38,229 nt of DNA from Pseudomonadota bacterium (GTDB taxonomy: Bacteria; Pseudomonadota; Alphaproteobacteria; Acetobacterales; Acetobacteraceae), in NCBI GenBank assembly GCA_021847175.1, contig JAJZUI010000007.1, positions 1-38,229 of the forward strand, given 5' to 3'. The position numbers were made by a program, and so were the translations under genes. The notes beneath the pieces were generated by a model. The model ran no database searches and was not told the origin of the DNA. It was given only the letters and a program-made list of their open reading frames with translations. The number at the start of each line of letters is the position of its first letter. Position 1 is the first letter of the stretch. Positions 1,023-37,569 of this stretch are shown here, one piece after another.

Positions 1023-1940
1023 ATGGACCTGCTGGCCGCCCTCAAGAGCTTCGTCCGCCTCGCTGAAACCGGCAGCTTTTCCGCCGTGGCGCGCGACGTC
1101 GGCGCTACCCAGCCCGCCATCTCGCGCCAGATCACCGCGCTCGAGGACCATCTCGGCGCCCGCCTGGTGCAGCGCAGCACCCGCAGCCTGCGCTTCACGG
1201 AGGACGGCCAGACCCTCCTCGTCCACGCACGCCACATCCTCGACGCCGTCGCCGAGGCCGAGGCCGCGGTCGGCCGCCAGCGCACCACCCCCTCGGGCCT
1301 GGTCCGCCTCGGCGCGCCCACCGTCTTCGGCCGCCTCTACCTCGCCCCGCATGTCGGCCGCCTCCTCGCCCGCAACCCGGAACTGCTGGTCGAGCTGGTG
1401 CTGTCCGACGATGTCTCGGACCTGGTCCAGCAGGGGCTCGACCTCGCGCTGCGCGTGGGGGAGATCGCCGACGTATCCCTCGTCGCGCGCCGCGTCGGCA
1501 GCTTCACCGTCGCCACCGTCGCCTCGCCGGACTACCTCGCCGCCAGGGGCGAGCCCGAGCGGCCCGAAGATCTCGCCGGCCATGAATGCATCCTCTTCAC
1601 CCGCGTCGCGGATCCCCACACCTGGCGCTTCGCCGGCCCCGACGGCGAGAAGCCGGTCGCGGTCGAGGGCCGCCTGCGCGTCAACAGCATCGAGGCCGCG
1701 GTCGCCGCGGCGGTCGCCGGCGCCGGCATCGCGGCCCTGCCCACCTGGCTCATCCGCGACGAACTCGCCGCCGGCTCCCTCAAGCGCATCCTGCACGACT
1801 TCCAGAGCCCGCGCCGCCCGATCTCGCTGGTCTACCCCTCGCGCCGCTTCCTCGCGCCCCGCACCCGCGCCGTGATCGACTTCCTCGTCGCCGAGTTCCG
1901 TCTCGACCCCGCGGTCTCCTCCTACGGCGAGATCGCCTGA
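1023..1940 (+). CDS. LysR family transcriptional regulator
   Basis: N-terminal wHTH MDLLAALKSFVRLAETGSFSAVARDVGATQPAISRQITALEDHLGARLVQRSTRSLRFTEDG is typical LysR; divergent from the peroxiredoxin gene. Confidence 0.95.
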   Translation: MDLLAALKSFVRLAETGSFSAVARDVGATQPAISRQITALEDHLGARLVQRSTRSLRFTEDGQTLLVHARHILDAVAEAEAAVGRQRTTPSGLVRLGAPTVFGRLYLAPHVGRLLARNPELLVELVLSDDVSDLVQQGLDLALRVGEIADVSLVARRVGSFTVATVASPDYLAARGEPERPEDLAGHECILFTRVADPHTWRFAGPDGEKPVAVEGRLRVNSIEAAVAAAVAGAGIAALPTWLIRDELAAGSLKRILHDFQSPRRPISLVYPSRRFLAPRTRAVIDFLVAEFRLDPAVSSYGEIA

Positions 1941-4240
1941 CGCCGTGCCCGCGCGCCGCGCGCCGCGAGCGCGGTATGGATCGCGCGCAGCCTCGCCGCA
2001 CCGGCATCGGTCAGGATCTCGGCACAGCCGCTCTCGTTCCACACACGCCGCGCGAAATCCGGGTGCAGTTCCATCGGCCCCTCCGCGTTCTCGAACGCGG
2101 CGCGGTTGCCGGTGTCGAGGTAGCTCTCGCACGGCGCCCCCTCGGCGAGGACCACGTCGTGCCGGTCGAGCTCCACATGCCAGTACGTCACCTGCCCGCG
2201 CGTCTCCTGCGTGATGGACGTGCCGTTGACGAGGTAGCGCACCGGCACCAGCGCGCCGTCGATCAGCACCGCGTGGTCGGGCGACAGTACCAGGTCGCGC
2301 AGCGGCAGCCCCTCGCCGAGCGCCCCGGCCGAAACCCGAACCGGCATCACGTCATGCGGGCTCGCGTGGCGCCGCAGGTCGAGCCGCCGGAACCCCACCC
2401 AGCGTATCGTCGCAAGCCGCCCGGACGCGGTCGCGAGCCGCTCGCCCGCGCGCAGCGTCTCCACCGCCCGTGCACCGCCCTCGGCCAGCAGCCTCGTCCC
2501 GGTCGCGAAACACGCCGTGATGAACGTGTTCCCACCGCTGTTCGAAACCCTCACCCGCGCCGGGCCGGAAAGATCGAGCGTGGTCCCGCCGGTGAGCGAC
2601 AGCGTGCCGCCCGAGAACGCCTGGTACGACGCCGCGAGCCCGGTGATCTCGATCGTGTCGCCGGCGGCAAACCCGGAAATCGCCTGCCCCGCGGCCAGCC
2701 CCGCCGCATCGCCGCTGGCCAGCCACGCCGCCCCCGCATCGAAGGTCAGCGCCGCGAAATCCACGACCGTCGAACCGATCCCCGCCAGCGTCCCTCGCCC
2801 GGCGCCGAACTCCAGCGTCGAGGTCGCCGTGCTGCCCGAGATGTTGCCGCCGATTACCTCGCCGCCGAACACGGCGCCCGGTTCGACGACCAGGCGGTCC
2901 GTGAAGCCCGCGGCGAAGTCCACCGCGTAGAGCCCGGCCGTCACGTTGATCGTGCCGGCGTTGGTGATCGTGCCGGACCCGGAAAGGAACCCGGCGCCAA
3001 GGCCGGCCCCCACGACCACGCCGCCGGCCTCGTTGACGAACAACCCGCCGGCATTCAGCGCCACGCCGGTGACCGAAGCGCCCTCGATCAACCCGGCGTT
3101 GATCGCCGTCGCCGCGGCCGTAATCGCCAGCACGCCCTGCTGCGCGCCAATGATCGTTCCACCGGTGTGATTGACGACGTAGCCGCCGGCGTTGAGCTGA
3201 ATTCCATTGTTCCTGCCGACGGCCTCGATCGTTCCGGTGTTGTCGATCGTGAGTGCGAAACTCGTGCCGAAGACGCCATTGAAGCCCGCGATCGTTCCCG
3301 CATTGGAGACCGTTCCGCCACCGTACATGGCGATGCCCGATGCCGTCGTGCCGATCACCACACCGTCATTGGTGACCGTCGTCGGCTGTCGATAGCCCGC
3401 ATAAACGCCGTTCTTCGCGCCCGTCAGCAGCGCGCCCCTGGCGTTGAAAACCGTCCCGCCGTCCCGCAGTCGTGCACCGAAGTTGGTCTGGCTGATGATG
3501 GTGCCGTAGTTGGTGAGGCCAACCGAGCTCGTCGTGTACCCATAAAATCCGGCCTTGTACGCGCGTATCATCCCCGTGGCTTCATTGGTCATCGCGCCTC
3601 CGGCACCGAGATCAATGCCGGTGTGAAACTTCGCAATCAGCGTGCCGGCGTTGAAAGCCGTCGCGGGTGCGTGCATCACATAAATGGCGTTGCCATGGGC
3701 GGAAACGAAGCCGCCGACCTGGTTGGTAATCACCCCACCGGCATAGAGCACCAGCCCCTGCGCCCCGTCGGCGAACACCGACCCCTCATTGACGATGGTC
3801 CCAAGCCCCCCGGTGACATACAGCCCATCCCCTGCATTCGCAGGCACCGTGCCGCCGGCGACGACAACCCCGGAACTCGCGTTCGTGATCGCGCCGCCCG
3901 CCAGCAGCACCACCGCGCCGCGGGTCGCGTCGGAGATATATCCGGCATTGACCACCGTCGCCGCCGCACCCGTCGCCAGCACGGCATGGAGCGCCGCCTC
4001 GATCGTCCCGCCAGCCGCGTTCAGGACATAGCCGCCATCCTTAAGAAAAACGCCGCGGAAACTTCCGGTTCCGGTCGAGAAAACGGCACCCAGATTGTCG
4101 ATGCTCCACGGCGTCGCCGCATAGAGCGCCGATGCGGCCGAGGTAACATTGATAACGCCGGTAACCGTCACGGGGTCCGCGTAAACCCCGGGCGTCAGTT
4201 GCACCGGCGACAAATGGATTCCGGATATCGTGCCCGACAT
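1922..4240 (-). CDS. Large beta-helix/autotransporter-passenger-like repeat protein with C-terminal Hint domain
   Basis: 772 aa; many G-[GT]-x-[VI]-x-N-x-G-x-I-type repeats, then CFATGTRLLAEGGARAVETLRAGERLATASG...LSPDHAVLIDGALVPVRYLVNGTSI, a Hint-type autoprocessing domain. Confidence 0.85.
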   Translation of the reverse strand: MSGTISGIHLSPVQLTPGVYADPVTVTGVINVTSAASALYAATPWSIDNLGAVFSTGTGSFRGVFLKDGGYVLNAAGGTIEAALHAVLATGAAATVVNAGYISDATRGAVVLLAGGAITNASSGVVVAGGTVPANAGDGLYVTGGLGTIVNEGSVFADGAQGLVLYAGGVITNQVGGFVSAHGNAIYVMHAPATAFNAGTLIAKFHTGIDLGAGGAMTNEATGMIRAYKAGFYGYTTSSVGLTNYGTIISQTNFGARLRDGGTVFNARGALLTGAKNGVYAGYRQPTTVTNDGVVIGTTASGIAMYGGGTVSNAGTIAGFNGVFGTSFALTIDNTGTIEAVGRNNGIQLNAGGYVVNHTGGTIIGAQQGVLAITAAATAINAGLIEGASVTGVALNAGGLFVNEAGGVVVGAGLGAGFLSGSGTITNAGTINVTAGLYAVDFAAGFTDRLVVEPGAVFGGEVIGGNISGSTATSTLEFGAGRGTLAGIGSTVVDFAALTFDAGAAWLASGDAAGLAAGQAISGFAAGDTIEITGLAASYQAFSGGTLSLTGGTTLDLSGPARVRVSNSGGNTFITACFATGTRLLAEGGARAVETLRAGERLATASGRLATIRWVGFRRLDLRRHASPHDVMPVRVSAGALGEGLPLRDLVLSPDHAVLIDGALVPVRYLVNGTSITQETRGQVTYWHVELDRHDVVLAEGAPCESYLDTGNRAAFENAEGPMELHPDFARRVWNESGCAEILTDAGAARLRAIHTALAARGARARRQAISP

Positions 4241-4495: not shown

Positions 4496-5164
4496 GTGAA
4501 TATCCTCGCCCCGCCCCGCGCGCGCCTCACGGTGGAGGTCGTCCACGACCTCGTCTGCCCCTGGTGCTACCTCGGGCTGCGGCGCCTGCTGCGCACGCTG
4601 CGCGCCCGTCCGGACCTCGCGGTGGAGCTCGCCTGGCGCCCCTTCCTGCTGAACCCGGACATGCCGCGCCTCGGCATGGCGTGGGGCGACTACGTGGTGC
4701 GCAAGTTCGGCGGCGAGGACCGTGCCCGCCGCCTCTACACCACCATCGCCCAGGTCGCCGCCGGCGAGGGCCTGGCGCTGGATTTCAACGCCATCGCCCG
4801 CGTTCCCTCCTCGGTCGATGCCCACCGCCTCGTCCGCCACGCCGTGCGCGCCGGCGGCCCCGATAGCTCCGCGGAGGGCCTCGTCATGGCCCTGTTCCGC
4901 GCCCATTTCGCCCAGGGCCGCGACATCGGCAGCCGCGCGGTGCTCACCGCCATCGCCGAGGAAAACGGCGTGCCCGGTGCCGCCGCCTTCCTCGCCTCGG
5001 ACGCCGAGACCGACGCCATCCACGCCGAGAACCTGCGCGCCCACCGCCTCGGCATCAACGGCGTGCCCTGCTTCGTCATCGCCGGCCGCCACGCCATCGC
5101 AGGCGCGCAGGAGAGCGAAGTCATCGAGCGCCTGCTCGACGTCGCCGCCCTGGAGGGCGCCTGA
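4496..5164 (+). CDS. DsbA family (FrnE-like) oxidoreductase
   Basis: VNILAPPRARLTVEVVHDLVCPWCYLGLRRLLRTL...; C-terminal INGVPCFVIAGRHAIAGAQESEVIERLL is typical of DsbA/FrnE. GTG start at 4496 chosen within ORF 4370..5164. Confidence 0.9.
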   Translation: MNILAPPRARLTVEVVHDLVCPWCYLGLRRLLRTLRARPDLAVELAWRPFLLNPDMPRLGMAWGDYVVRKFGGEDRARRLYTTIAQVAAGEGLALDFNAIARVPSSVDAHRLVRHAVRAGGPDSSAEGLVMALFRAHFAQGRDIGSRAVLTAIAEENGVPGAAAFLASDAETDAIHAENLRAHRLGINGVPCFVIAGRHAIAGAQESEVIERLLDVAALEGA

Positions 5165-5595
5165 CCGCCATCCGCCCCGCCATCCGACAGGCGACCGCGG
5201 CCGACGCGCCGGAAGTCGCGCGCCTCCTCCACCACCTCGGCTACGACATCACCCCCGCGCAGGCCGCCTCCCGCCTCGCCACCCTCGCGAAACACAACGA
5301 CCCCGTCTTCCTCGCCGAGCAGGACGGAAGCGCCGTCGGCCTCGTCGCACTCCACCGCACCCAGATGCTCCACGCCGAGGGTGAGACCGCGCGCATCACG
5401 GCGCTGGTCGTCGCCCCGGAAGCCCGCCGCCAGGGCATCGCCTCCGCTCTCGTCGCCCGCGCCCGCGAATGGTCCGCCGGCTGCGCCGTCCTCGAGCTCA
5501 CCACCGGCGTCCAGCGCAAGGACGCCCACGCTTTCTACATCCGCGAGGGCTTCGTCTCGAACGCGATACGTTTCAAGACCGGCCCCGGCCGCTGA
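5161..5595 (+). CDS. GNAT family N-acetyltransferase (apparent non-ATG start, CTG at 5161)
   Basis: In-frame translation upstream of ATG 5365: LTAIRPAIRQATAADAPEVARLLHHLGYDITPAQAASRLATLAKHNDPVFLAEQDGSAVGLVALHRT..., then ARITALVVAPEARRQGIASALVARAREWSAGCAVLELTTGVQRKDAHAFYIREGFV (GNAT motif A). No in-frame ATG/GTG/TTG seen between 5041 and 5161. Confidence 0.8.
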   Translation: MTAIRPAIRQATAADAPEVARLLHHLGYDITPAQAASRLATLAKHNDPVFLAEQDGSAVGLVALHRTQMLHAEGETARITALVVAPEARRQGIASALVARAREWSAGCAVLELTTGVQRKDAHAFYIREGFVSNAIRFKTGPGR

Positions 5596-5596
5596 C

Positions 5597-8500
5597 TCAC
5601 GCCGCCTTCGCCTCGTTCGCAATCGCCGCCAGAGCCGAGAGCGTCTCGCGGGCCGCGCGCAACCGTTGCGTCAGCGTCATGTCGCGCACCAGGGCCAGCT
5701 TGTGGTCCGGCCGCAGCCTAACCATCCCGCCCCGCGTCGCCAGCCACGTCACCAGCCCCGCCGGGTTGCGGAATGCGTTGCGCCGGAACCCGATCACCAT
5801 CCCCTTCGGCCCCGCCTCCAGCTTCTCGACATCCGCCTCGCGGCACAACCGCTTCAACCCCACCACCGCGAGCAGGTTCTCCACCTCCTCCGGCAGCTTG
5901 CCGAACCGGTCGACCAGCTCCGCCGCCATCGCCTCGCTCTCCGCGTCCGATGCCAGCGCCGCGATGCGCCGATAGAGCCCGAGCCGCACCGGCAGGTCGC
6001 GCACATAGGTCTCGGGGATCAGCACCGGCAGGCCCAGCGCGATCGTCGGCGCCCACTCGCGGTCCGCCACGCGCCCCCTGCCCTGCGCCCGCAACTCGGC
6101 AACAGCGTCCTCGAGCATCTGCTGATAGAGCTCGATCCCCACCTCGCGGATATGCCCGCTCTGCTGGTCGCCCAGCAGGTTCCCCGCACCGCGGATATCG
6201 AGGTCGTGGCTCGCCAGCGTGAACCCCGCGCCCAGCGTATCCAGCGTCTGCATCACATCCAGCCGCTTCTTCGCGGTTGCCGACAACGGCTGCGTCGGCG
6301 GCCAGGTCAGGTACGCATAGCCCCGCTGCTTGCCCCGCCCCACGCGCCCGCGCAATTGGTAAAGCTGACCGAGTCCGAAACGATCCGCCCGGTAGACGAT
6401 CAGCGTGTTCACCGCCGGCATGTCGAGCCCGCTCTCGACGATGTTGGTCGAGAGCAGGATGTCGTGCCGCCCGTCGCCGAACTCGGTCATGACGCGCTCG
6501 AGCTGCGTCGGTGCCATCCGCCCATGCGCCTCCACCACCCGTGCCTCGGGTGCGATCTCGCGCAGCCGCTCGGCCATGCGCGGCAGGTCCTCGATGCGCG
6601 GGCACACGCAGAACACCTGCCCGCCGCGGAACCGCTCGCGCTGGATCGCCTCGCGCGCCACCAGCGCGTCGAACGGCCCGATGAATGTCCGCACCGCGAG
6701 CCGGTCCACCGGCGGGGTCGCGATCAGGCTCATCTCCCGCACGCCGGAAAGCGACATCTGCAGCGTGCGCGGAATCGGCGTCGCCGTCAGCGTCAGCACG
6801 TGGATATCCGCGCGCAGGGCCTTCAGCTTTTCCTTGTGCGCGACGCCGAAATGTTGCTCCTCGTCAATGATCAGCAGCCCGAGGTCCGCGAACTCGACCC
6901 CCTTCGCCAGCAGCGCGTGCGTGCCGATCACGATGTTGACCGTCCCGTCCTTCAGCCCCGCCTTCACCGCCGCCGCCTCCTTCGCGGAAACCATCCGCGA
7001 AAGCTGCGCCACCTTCACCGGCAGCCCCTGGAACCGCGCCGAGAACACCCGGTGGTGCTGGCGCGCCAGCAGCGTCGTCGGCACCACCACCGCCACCTGT
7101 GCGCCCGACATCGCGGCGACGAATGCCGCGCGCAGCGCCACCTCCGTCTTGCCGAACCCCACGTCGCCGCAGATCAGCCGGTCCATCGGGTGGCCGGAGG
7201 CGAGGTCCTCCAGCACATCGGCGATCGCCCGCGCCTGGTCCTCCGTCTCCGCGAACGGGAAGCGCGCGCAGAACTCGTCCCAGCTCCCCTCCGGCGGCGC
7301 CATCAGCGGCGCCTCCTGCAGCTGCCGTTGCGCCGCCGTTCTGATCAGCTCCGCTGCCATGTCGCGGATGCGCGACTTCATCCGCGCCTTGCGAGCCTGC
7401 CACGAGGCCCCACCCAGCTTGTCGAGCGCCACCCCGGCGCTCTCCGCGCCGTAGCGCGACAACGCCTCGATGTTCTCGACCGGCAGGAACAGCTTGCCGT
7501 CGTCGTCGTAGAGGATGCGCAGGCAGTCGTGCGGCGCGCCCGAGACCGTCAGCGTCACCAGCCCGTCATACCGCCCGATGCCGTGGTCCTCGTGCACCAC
7601 GAGGTCGCCGACCTCGATCTCGCTCGCTTCCGCAATGAACTGGTCCGCCCGCCGGCGCCGCCGCGGCGGCCTGGCGATCCGTTCGCCCAGCAGGTCCTGC
7701 TCGGCCACGATCGCGAGGTCCGGCGCGACAAACCCGCGGTCCAGCCCCAGCGTGGCCAGCGCGATCGTCCCTTTCGGAACCCCCGCGATCCCGACGGCCG
7801 TCTCCACCGGCGCCGTCGCCAGCCCCCGCTCGGAGAGGATATGCGCGAGCCGGTCGCGCGAGCCCGCGGACCACGCCGCCAGCGCCACCTTCCGCCCGTC
7901 GCGCAGCCACCGCCCCGCCGCCTCCGCGAACGCGGCGATCGCATCCGGTCCGGTCGCCGCGGCCTGCGCGGAGAACAGCGGCCCCGGCCGCGCGCCCGCC
8001 TCCACCCCCGCCGCCCCTTCCGGCCGCGCGAACGGCGAGAACGCCGTCGCCTGGTGCGCGGCCAGCAGCGCGTCCCATTCCTCGCGCGAGAGATACAGCG
8101 CCGTCTCCGCCAGCGGCCGGTATGCCAGTTCCCCGTCACGCGGCATCGCCAGCCGCGCCTGGTGATGGTCGGCGATCATCTCGAACCGCGACGTCGCCGA
8201 CGCCTCCCACTGGTCGTCCAGCGTCAGCAACGCCTTCGGCACGTAGTCCGCCAGCGTCTCCATCCGCTCGAAGAACAGTGGCAGGAAATGCTCCATCCCC
8301 GGATGCCGCCGCCCCTCGGAAAGCGAGAGATAGATCGGGTCGGACGCCGCCGCCGCACCCGCATGCGCCCGCCACCCGGTGCGGAACCGCGAGATCGACT
8401 CCTTGTCGAGCGGCACCTCGCAGACCGGCCGCAGCACGATCGCCTCCACGGCCTCGCCGCTGCGCTGCGTCTCCGGGTCGAACCGCCGTATCGACTCGAT

Positions 8501-34785: not shown

Positions 34786-34807
34786 AAACCAGTCTCCACA
34801 TGCCGAA

Positions 34808-34822
34808 CCGGGCCAGGCCCGG
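34808..34822. promoter_or_regulatory. Perfect inverted repeat CCGGGCC-A-GGCCCGG upstream of ssb
   Basis: Read directly; 7-bp arms, 1-nt centre, 22 nt upstream of the ssb start codon. Confidence 0.45.
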
Positions 34823-35014
34823 ACGACCTTTCTACCCCAATCCCGCCGGCTTCCAAACCCTGCCCCAAGCGACAACGCCCCCCGTTTAGTTACTGGGATT
34901 AACCTCCATCCAGTCCCTCGAACACTCGCTCGGTTACCTTCGAACGGCGGTATGGGCTATCCTGCCACACGGGGCGCGAGTAGACGCCCCCGCTCCTGTG
35001 GCCAGAAATTTACA

Positions 35015-35848
35015 ATGGAACGTCAGAACGTGGAGATCGAAAAGGTAAGACTAACCGGACCGGCTGCGGAAGCCGCCATCTTCAAGGACGCCAATATAGA
35101 GGGGATCCTAGCGACAGCCGCAAAGCTCCTTGTCAGGGCAAACGAATTGCTTGCGGCATCGCTTTTGGCGAACGCGTCGATCTCCATAACGCACTGGGAG
35201 CACGACAATTGGGAGGGCGGCCAAGACACGTGGCGCCTGTACCTAGCTGTACCAGCTGACACCTACCTGGCGCTGGAAAGCCGCGAGGAAATTGAAAAGA
35301 TAATCGATCGGGCCATCGCAACACCGATGCGTGCGGTGTCGACTTCGGACTTTATCACGGTCGAAATCACGACAACCCTCGACCGCGATCCCGATTGGCG
35401 TCGAAAAACGCTTCAGGCGGTGACGGGGGAAGGCATCAACAACCAGGGCCGTGTCCACAGCCAAAATATCGCAGCCAGGGAATTTGATAACCTGAGGTTT
35501 CGGTCTAGCGCGGAGGTATGTTTTTACCGCGCACTGAAGGCCGCCGGTGTCGCATTCGCGCCGCTCTGCGTCGTAGTCGGGCACGGAGGAGCGGGGCAGG
35601 CGCCACGCCGGATCGAACCAGACTTCATCATCTTCAAAGATGGGCTGGTTACAGTTATCGAGATTGATGGAGATTTATTCCACACCGAGACGCCGTACGT
35701 TGCCCACCGCCGATTGAAGTTCTTGACTGACGAAGGCGCGCACCTCGATCGGCTCAATGCGAATGAGTGCGATACATACGAAAAAGCGAGGGAAGCCGTC
35801 CGCTTAGTGTTAATGCAAATTGAAAAGCGACGAAATTCAAAAATATAA
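35015..35848 (+). CDS. Putative nuclease: novel N-terminal domain + DUF559/Vsr-like (PD-(D/E)XK-fold) C-terminal domain
   Basis: C-terminal FRSSAEVCFYRALKAAG...RRIEPDFIIFKDGLVTVIEIDGDLFHTETPYVAHRRLKFLTDEGAHLDRLNANECDTYEKA matches the E...D...ExDG..H pattern of DUF559/Vsr-like nucleases. ATG 35015 chosen within ORF 34556..35848. Confidence 0.65.
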   Translation: MERQNVEIEKVRLTGPAAEAAIFKDANIEGILATAAKLLVRANELLAASLLANASISITHWEHDNWEGGQDTWRLYLAVPADTYLALESREEIEKIIDRAIATPMRAVSTSDFITVEITTTLDRDPDWRRKTLQAVTGEGINNQGRVHSQNIAAREFDNLRFRSSAEVCFYRALKAAGVAFAPLCVVVGHGGAGQAPRRIEPDFIIFKDGLVTVIEIDGDLFHTETPYVAHRRLKFLTDEGAHLDRLNANECDTYEKAREAVRLVLMQIEKRRNSKI

Positions 35849-35860
35849 TTGCTATAATTG
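35844..35860 (+). promoter_or_regulatory. Duplicated -10-like element TATAATTGc/TATAATTG, second copy with extended -10 (TGCTATAAT)
   Basis: Two TATAAT hexamers at 35844-35849 and 35853-35858, the first overlapping the TAA stop of the nuclease gene. Confidence 0.45.
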
Positions 35861-35931
35861 TTATTTTTTATGCGAATATGTTTATGTATTATATTTTTCC
35901 TGAAATCAGTCGGCGAAAAGGGGGGCGAAAG

Positions 35932-36633
35932 ATGACGTTCTGGAGTATGAACGCGGTCGAATCAACGATTAGAAACATATACTTAGAAACCGCCACCTTC
36001 TACGATCAGATTCGCCCCCGCATGGGTGCACATGCGTTCGGATTCAAGATCCTCTACGGGCCGCCATTGGTCAACGCGCCGATCGCATTCGTCGGCATCA
36101 ATCCGGGTGGAAGTCTGATTGATAAGATTAAGGGGGAACGAATAGGCGAATTTGGTGAACATGGCGGCTGGCCGCCCGAATGCGAATATGCAGATTCAAA
36201 CTGGAAGTTGGCCCGCGCGCTCCAGAACGTCTTCAAACCCTCTTTCCTCAAGGAATGCACAGGATTGAATGCAAATTTCTTTAGGTCTCCAAGCGAGGAT
36301 TCCTGGAAATCGTTACCCCACGACCTCCGAAGAATGGCTGAGAATTTTTCTGCCGTCCGAGCGCAGAAAATTCTTAGTGTTTTGGCACCCCGTTTGGTCG
36401 TTATAATTGGCTTTGGGCTAATGGATAAGCTTCGCGACAGATCTTCGACAATAACCAACGTTCTAGAAAATAGAGAGAGAATTTTGATTAGGTCCGGTAC
36501 AGTTTTCGGTTTCCGTTCATTGGCTCTGAGGCACTTAAGCGCCAGCCGCATTACTGTCAGACCATCTCCCGACGAGATGATCATGATAAGGGACTACTTT
36601 ATGCAATACAGAACCACGATAAAATTGGACTAG
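35932..36633 (+). CDS. Uracil-DNA-glycosylase-superfamily-like protein
   Basis: APIAFVGINPGGSL resembles MUG/TDG motif A (GINPG); C-terminal RSLALRHLSASRIT in the place of motif B. Strong SD AAAGGGGGG before ATG 35932 (alternative ATG 35878). Confidence 0.55.
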   Translation: MTFWSMNAVESTIRNIYLETATFYDQIRPRMGAHAFGFKILYGPPLVNAPIAFVGINPGGSLIDKIKGERIGEFGEHGGWPPECEYADSNWKLARALQNVFKPSFLKECTGLNANFFRSPSEDSWKSLPHDLRRMAENFSAVRAQKILSVLAPRLVVIIGFGLMDKLRDRSSTITNVLENRERILIRSGTVFGFRSLALRHLSASRITVRPSPDEMIMIRDYFMQYRTTIKLD

Positions 36634-36722
36634 ACGCCGTCGACGCAAGAAGTGCCCGACCCTATTGATCCGCTCCGCCGAATTTTCGCAGCAGACCCAT
36701 TGCGAACCGTAGGTGTTCCGAT

Positions 36723-36740
36723 GGAATTACGGAATTACGG
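36723..36740. repeat. 8-bp tandem repeat GGAATTAC-GGAATTAC-GG
   Basis: Read directly: atGGAATTACGGAATTACGGtgacagtgcac. Confidence 0.7.
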
Positions 36741-36803
36741 TGACAGTGCACCAAACTCGTCACCCACGCCGCGCAATGCCAAACCCGCGGGCCGCCTGCC
36801 ACC

Positions 36804-37202
36804 TCACCCCCAATCCTCGCACCGCAGCCCCCGCACCCGCCCAAACTCCCCCAGATTGCCCGTAACAACTACCAACCCCCGGCTACGCGCGTGCCCCGCG
36901 ATCATCAGATCATACGGCCCAATCACGCGCCCCTGCCGTTCCAGGTCCGCCCGAATCTCCGCCGTATGCCCCGCCGCCTCGCTGTCGAACGGCAGCACCG
37001 CCAGCCGCCCCGCGAAATGCTCCACCTCCCGCCGCACGCGCGGTGGATCAGCGGAACGCTCCGCCCCATACAAAAGCTCGTAAAGCACCACGTCCGAAAG
37101 ACACATCGCCTCCGCCTGCGCGTTGAACCGCTCCCGCAGCGCCACGGGCCGGTCGCGCAACACGCGTATGCACAGATTCGTATCGAGCAGATAACGAAGC
37201 AT
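36804..37202 (-). CDS. vapC: VapC-like PIN-domain ribonuclease toxin
   Basis: MLRYLLDTNLCIRVLRDRP...LSDVVLYELLYGAERS...IGPYDLMIAGHARSRGLVVVTGNLGEFGRVRGLRCEDW: PIN acidic residues (DTN, E, D, N..E). Confidence 0.93.
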   Translation of the reverse strand: MLRYLLDTNLCIRVLRDRPVALRERFNAQAEAMCLSDVVLYELLYGAERSADPPRVRREVEHFAGRLAVLPFDSEAAGHTAEIRADLERQGRVIGPYDLMIAGHARSRGLVVVTGNLGEFGRVRGLRCEDWG

Positions 37203-37432
37203 CAGAACCCTTCGCGCTCCTGCATCGGCGGCTGCCGCCGCTCGCCAAGATCGACACCAGGCGCGCTGAAAAAATCGTCCCATCCTCGGTCGGCCGGCGC
37301 GATGATCCGCCTCGGCCCATCCGGCACAATCACCACCTCGTGCACGTCCTCCGAGAACGCCACCGCCTTGGGCAACCGCACGGCCTGAGACCGGTTCGAG
37401 AGAAACAGGGAAGTTCGCGCCAGCATTGCCAT
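37202..37432 (-). CDS. vapB: VapB-like (AbrB/SpoVT-type) antitoxin
   Basis: MAMLARTSLFLSNRSQAVRLPKAVAFSEDVHEVVIVPDGPRRIIAPA; ATGA overlap with vapC. Confidence 0.92.
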   Translation of the reverse strand: MAMLARTSLFLSNRSQAVRLPKAVAFSEDVHEVVIVPDGPRRIIAPADRGWDDFFSAPGVDLGERRQPPMQEREGF

Positions 37433-37442
37433 CGTTCCTACA

Positions 37443-37461
37443 TATATCCTAATTGGATATA
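37443..37461. promoter_or_regulatory. Inverted repeat TATATCC-TAATT-GGATATA, candidate VapBC operator
   Basis: Perfect 7-bp arms with 5-nt spacer, about 10 bp upstream of the vapB start codon. Confidence 0.65.
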
Positions 37462-37550
37462 CAAACTGCCGCACGCCGTCGCAAGAGCGATCGCGCCGCC
37501 AACCGACGCACGCCCCCTTCCCAACTCCCCCAAATCCCGCCATATAATAA

Positions 37551-37565
37551 GAACATCCCGGGAAC
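37551..37565. promoter_or_regulatory. Candidate LexA SOS box GAAC-N7-GAAC (= GTTC-N7-GTTC on the other strand) at uvrA
   Basis: GAACATCCCGGGAAC immediately upstream of the uvrA ATG, preceded by TATAAT at 37543-37548; matches the alphaproteobacterial SOS box consensus GTTCN7GTTC. Confidence 0.75.
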
Positions 37566-37569
37566 ATTC

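Follow-up and report, generated by a model that had tools for sequence, protein, structure and literature searches.

Adjacent foreign genes between ssb and uvrA encode a predicted DUF559-like nuclease and a putative UDG-superfamily protein that do not occur as a conserved pair

Two adjacent genes, called gene 1 and gene 2 here, lie between ssb and uvrA in the window, the 38,229-nucleotide stretch of Acetobacteraceae DNA that we analysed. They are best read as two independent single-gene DNA-targeting functions, not as a two-part machine. We consider it likely that the junction holds horizontally acquired cargo in which two such proteins, probably defensive, stand beside a VapBC pair. A first-pass annotation had proposed that the two genes form a base-excision plus strand-cleavage module. 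Its placement of two co-directional genes agreed with the open reading frames (ORFs) that we found: both are on the + strand, separated by 83 bp, and the start codon of gene 2 is preceded by GGGGGGCGAAAG (Table 1).

Table 1. Features of the ssb-uvrA junction and of the two genes (nucleotide positions are those of the window)
Feature	Position	Strand	Remarks
Foreign segment between ssb (-, start about 34788) and uvrA (+, start 37570)	34789..37569		Delimited by relatives' junction and GC3
Gene 1	35015..35848	+	277 aa; ATG at 35015; ORF intact
Gene 1 N-terminal half	about residues 1-150	+	Family-specific; in no searched library
Gene 1 C-terminal DUF559-like PD-(D/E)XK nuclease domain (predicted)	about residues 160-276	+	Relatives, motifs, predicted fold
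Gene 1 nuclease signature codons: E167 (FRSxxE), D203 (EPDF), E216 and D218 (ExDG)	35513..35668	+	Invariant in 22 relatives
Sigma-70-like promoter, TTGAAA-18-TATAAT	35820..35849	+	End of gene 1, before gene 2; 11/12 matches, to the consensus only (shuffled sequence yields 1.5 sites of at least 9/12)
Gene 2	35932..36633	+	233 aa; ATG at 35932; ORF intact; putative UDG-superfamily protein
Gene 2 motif A, V-GINPGGS	36091..36114	+	N57 at 36100-36102; from sequence; N57 invariant
Gene 2 R118-S119 (FRS motif after N115)	36283..36288	+	Invariant; probably the motif-3 region
Gene 2 motif B, HLS	36532..36540	+	H201 at 36532-36534; from sequence; H201 invariant
VapC-like PIN toxin	36804-37283	-	Part of the foreign segment
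MazE/AbrB-type antitoxin	37202-37567	-	Part of the foreign segment; forms VapBC with the PIN toxin

Relatives have ssb and uvrA in divergent orientation, mostly 0.1-0.4 kb apart, and most of these relatives carry no insert there. In the window, the two are separated by 2.8 kb of low-GC DNA that carries VapBC as well as genes 1 and 2. The GC content at third codon positions (GC3) was 0.63 for gene 1 and 0.56 for gene 2, against 0.917 +/- 0.030 for 18 other genes of the window. The low GC3 and the short ancestral junction in relatives show that this segment is of foreign origin. In a congener (G811; loci L071 and L088), homology ended 37 bp upstream of ssb and was followed by an FkbM-type methyltransferase-like gene (family assigned by eye). 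The junction varies in content and accumulates foreign genes, and the adjacency of gene 1 and gene 2 can thus be explained without a functional link. Elsewhere in the window, a 772-aa repetitive protein (1922-4240, - strand) has a C-terminal part that appeared Hint-type-like by eye.

Neither protein was matched in Pfam, PADLOC, NCBIfam or PHROGs, apart from one chance match in NCBIfam, and searches of PDB sequences with either protein alone yielded nothing useful. Their identities were taken from their relatives. When 85,488 genomes were scanned with profile guidance, 25 relatives of gene 1 were detected, mostly full length and with 33-41% identity. Their hosts were cyanobacteria, beta-, gamma- and delta-proteobacteria, Chloroflexi, Planctomycetota and Acidobacteria; a copy on a conjugative Burkholderia plasmid and a distant copy in Azospirillum were also found. 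Gene 1 is a member of a widely scattered protein family that is uncharacterised and whose proteins have about 257 aa.

The gene 1 protein carries the motif string FRSSAE...RIEPDFIIF...VIEIDGDLFH. In an alignment of 22 full-length relatives, E167, D203, E216, D218 and H223 were invariant, as were W128, G138, an NQGRVxSxN block (143-151), ExP (225-227), R233, an EG and R246, so the motif is not a product of chance. Judged by sequence, D203...E216 and D218 correspond to the D...ExD core of DUF559-type PD-(D/E)XK nucleases. The DUF559 model was matched weakly by 13 of the 22 relatives (best 0.0044), reaching 2.4e-5 in more distant cyanobacterial relatives, and the MTES_1575 REase model was matched weakly by 8. 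The true Vsr family, PF03852, was matched by neither gene 1 nor any of the 22, and we rejected Vsr membership. Of the proposed "DUF559/Vsr-like nuclease", therefore, the DUF559-like part is borne out by relatives, profiles and predicted fold, and the Vsr part is not.

Structure prediction from the 22 sequences (AF2; pLDDT 79, pTM 0.46) gave a model whose predicted fold is of the PD-(D/E)XK nuclease type, as the annotation had expected. Against the PDB, many matches had a probability of 0.97-1.0 and none an E below 0.001. Among them were Holliday junction resolvases, Bax1, I-Bth0305I (TM 0.60) and VRR_NUC (TM 0.55), the last two with E about 0.02 and with TM normalised by target length. Against BFVD, viral restriction, Vsr-like and DUF559 proteins were matched with E down to 1e-5, 35 of the matches having E below 0.001. 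When profiles were used to search the PDB, the one useful match for gene 1 was 3hrl (endonuclease-like, E 1e-4), obtained with the wider set of cyanobacterial relatives. The DF...ExDG...H core and the predicted fold are common to gene 1 and the DUF559/MTES_1575/Vsr-like nucleases, for example VsrA of Caulobacter (PMC12907096). Gene 1 differs from these in an extra conserved N-terminal half of about 150 aa, the NQGRVxSxN linker motif and FRSxxE. The earlier remark that this N-terminal part has no recognisable family held for every library searched.

In 7 of 27 gene 1 relatives, a defence-type gene was the next or next-but-one neighbour; the neighbours scanned were chosen by hand, and defence enrichment is an impression. 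The Gabija genes GajA-GajB were directly upstream in L035 (4316-8798) and L037 (4277-8759), loci of two Pseudomonas species that are close relatives of each other, and the gene 1 relative could be an accessory third gene of Gabija there. Other neighbours were an OLD-TOPRIM and UvrD pair (L024), a type I methyltransferase (L018), a type IIG restriction-methylase (L015), an HNH effector-like gene at a distance of 3 bp (L033, 7182-8732) and a CAP12/PCTIR TIR gene at about 120 bp (L029, 4270-5977). Some relatives were among ordinary house-keeping genes (L013, L020 and L036). No neighbour recurred across the 27 loci, which suggests that gene 1 acts alone or with trans-acting partners. At L023, a different UDG-superfamily gene (4904-5632; PF03167, E = 6.8e-5) was found upstream of the gene 1 relative, with another gene between the two.

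For gene 2, a genome scan with the single sequence as query found no relatives. The first detectable relative was a Roseibium plasmid protein annotated as UDG family (29% identity, E 2e-5), which matches Pfam UDG at 8.6e-7. Profile searches then placed relatives in about 1% of the genomes of the class; among 150 genomes of one other family, 6 had a relative, which in two cases was a fragment. PF03167 was matched by 7 of 11 members (best 1.7e-7), while gene 2 itself stayed under every Pfam threshold. Its motif string is FVGINPGGS...FRS...RHLSAS. N57, P58, R118, S119 and H201 were invariant in the 11 relatives aligned, which argues against a chance motif; the C-terminal H-x-S-like motif noticed earlier is thus real, in the form of HLS. 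No profile match to a solved UDG in the PDB was significant (SMUG1 1oe4, E = 0.58; E. coli Mug, probability 15%), and a single-sequence AF2 model had a pLDDT of 32. Relatives, profiles and motifs support gene 2 as a putative UDG-superfamily protein.

Within the superfamily, published motif tables list GINPG in motif A for MUG/TDG (family 2), with a motif B of the MPSSSAR type that has no His, and GMNPG with HPSPRN for SMUG1 (family 3) (PMC10359453). Gene 2 has motif A in common with MUG/TDG, but its motif B, HLSAS, carries an invariant His that MUG/TDG lack, and its profile comparison with E. coli Mug was weak. The "MUG/UDG-like" label is accordingly kept for the superfamily and for GINPG, and membership of the MUG/TDG family is rejected. 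By these tables, the combination of GINPG with a motif-B His is SMUG-like, as SMUG1 also has an xNPG with Asn in motif A and a His in motif B. SMUG1 differs from gene 2 in having HPSPRN in place of HLS, whereas the FRS motif is specific to the family of gene 2.

Among gene 2 relatives, a SocA/Panacea-domain gene was downstream on the same strand at two loci (L048:7312-8688 and L052:6998-8667), a possible link to toxin-antitoxin systems or phages. In L052 (8026-9667), a SRAP (abasic-site crosslinking) gene was divergent to the UDG-like gene, a pair that is chemically suggestive. The relative in L003 stood beside a NACHT gene whose N-terminus is weakly Cap4-like, and that in L053 (7951-12679) had a GmrSD_N (DUF262) gene and a true Vsr gene within 5 kb. 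The source genome has three UDG-family genes besides gene 2, so a house-keeping role in uracil repair is unnecessary for it.

The proposed module would be a restriction or mismatch-repair system: gene 2 would excise a base that is modified or mismatched, and gene 1 would cut the strand at the abasic site or close to it. The closeness of the genes on one strand and the chemical compatibility of their activities speak for it, and their adjacency and direction would allow co-transcription, which counts against independence. UDG-type defence genes may also have operon partners, as in Brig3-BapA (PMC13160076), and the UDG-superfamily gene at L023 is 2.3 kb from the gene 1 relative; by a rough estimate, one such case in 27 loci is about what chance would give for a superfamily with a few copies per genome. 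The conserved pairing that a module implies was absent: tblastn and profile searches found no gene 2 relative near gene 1 relatives at any of 27 loci, and gene 1 was found in none of 10 genomes with gene 2 relatives. A weak gene 2 profile match occurred elsewhere in one of 25 genomes with gene 1 relatives (G831, the genome of L018), on a different contig from the locus (49,179 versus 54,206 bases), and is therefore not a linked pair. Moreover, gene 2 has its own promoter match, base composition differs between the genes, and abasic sites are already cut by host AP endonucleases. We rejected a two-gene nuclease and glycosylase system for its lack of conserved co-occurrence, and we regard the module as very unlikely. 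A lineage-specific variant, a restriction module in which the glycosylase makes abasic sites in modified phage DNA and an N-terminally guided DUF559-like nuclease breaks them, seems scarcely likely at all.

Accessory DNA repair with no phage role, by SMUG-like repair of uracil or oxidised pyrimidines and by nicking of the very-short-patch kind, would suit the SMUG1-like motif pair of gene 2, the SRAP gene in L052 and the behaviour of Caulobacter VsrA, a DUF559 protein that acts like a Vsr-type mismatch nuclease (PMC12907096). The genes are nevertheless rare, patchy and foreign, other UDGs are present in the genome, and defence systems adjoin gene 1 relatives; uvrA and ssb do adjoin the pair, but this proximity is due to the insertion site. 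We consider this explanation unlikely. That the genes are neutral cargo, which once served defence or belonged to a plasmid, landed in the junction and is now drifting, is improbable to a high degree: the hot spot, with its unrelated gene at the same place in the congener, and the low GC3, which suggests recent arrival, are consistent with it, but both ORFs are full length and every catalytic-type residue has been kept.

In the preferred reading, that of two independent and probably defensive proteins, gene 1 would be a stand-alone PD-(D/E)XK (DUF559-like) endonuclease that probably recognises its target or a partner through the N-terminal half. Gene 2 would be a small monofunctional UDG-superfamily base glycosylase, in which N57 may position the water and H201 may stabilise the leaving base. 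By removing a base that is damaged or modified, it would leave an abasic site, which would block replication or be cut by ordinary AP endonucleases. We infer these enzymatic activities, the role of the gene 1 N-terminal half and the mainly anti-phage service of both proteins; the neighbourhoods make an anti-phage role plausible for each gene separately. No relatives of either gene were found in the phage collection searched.

In anti-phage defence, gene 2 might work like Brig1, Brig2 and Brig3, DNA glycosylases of the UDG superfamily (PMC11078745, PMC13160076). By description, these resemble gene 2 as small, patchily distributed UDG-superfamily proteins that lie in defence islands and act as single-gene effectors. 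The Asn that Brig3 employs close to the glycosidic bond, N50, is comparable to the motif-A Asn of gene 2. By simple count, the Brig3 specificity residue E55 (N50+5) corresponds to L62 of gene 2, which suggests that the substrate of gene 2 is probably not 5hmC. By domain, gene 2 can also be set beside the UDG-domain genes of DefensePredictor (PMC13092281), whose defence role is predicted, not validated.

These genes carry a warning that adjacency at an insertion hot spot need not mean a system. The gene 1 family is widely spread, has no name in the libraries searched and, in several lineages, directly adjoins genes for Gabija, for restriction-modification or for TIR/HNH effectors; gene 1 is a promising candidate for a single-gene defence nuclease of a kind not yet described. 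Gene 2 appears to represent a branch of the UDG superfamily distinct by its motifs from MUG/TDG, and could widen the range of Brig-type glycosylase defences.
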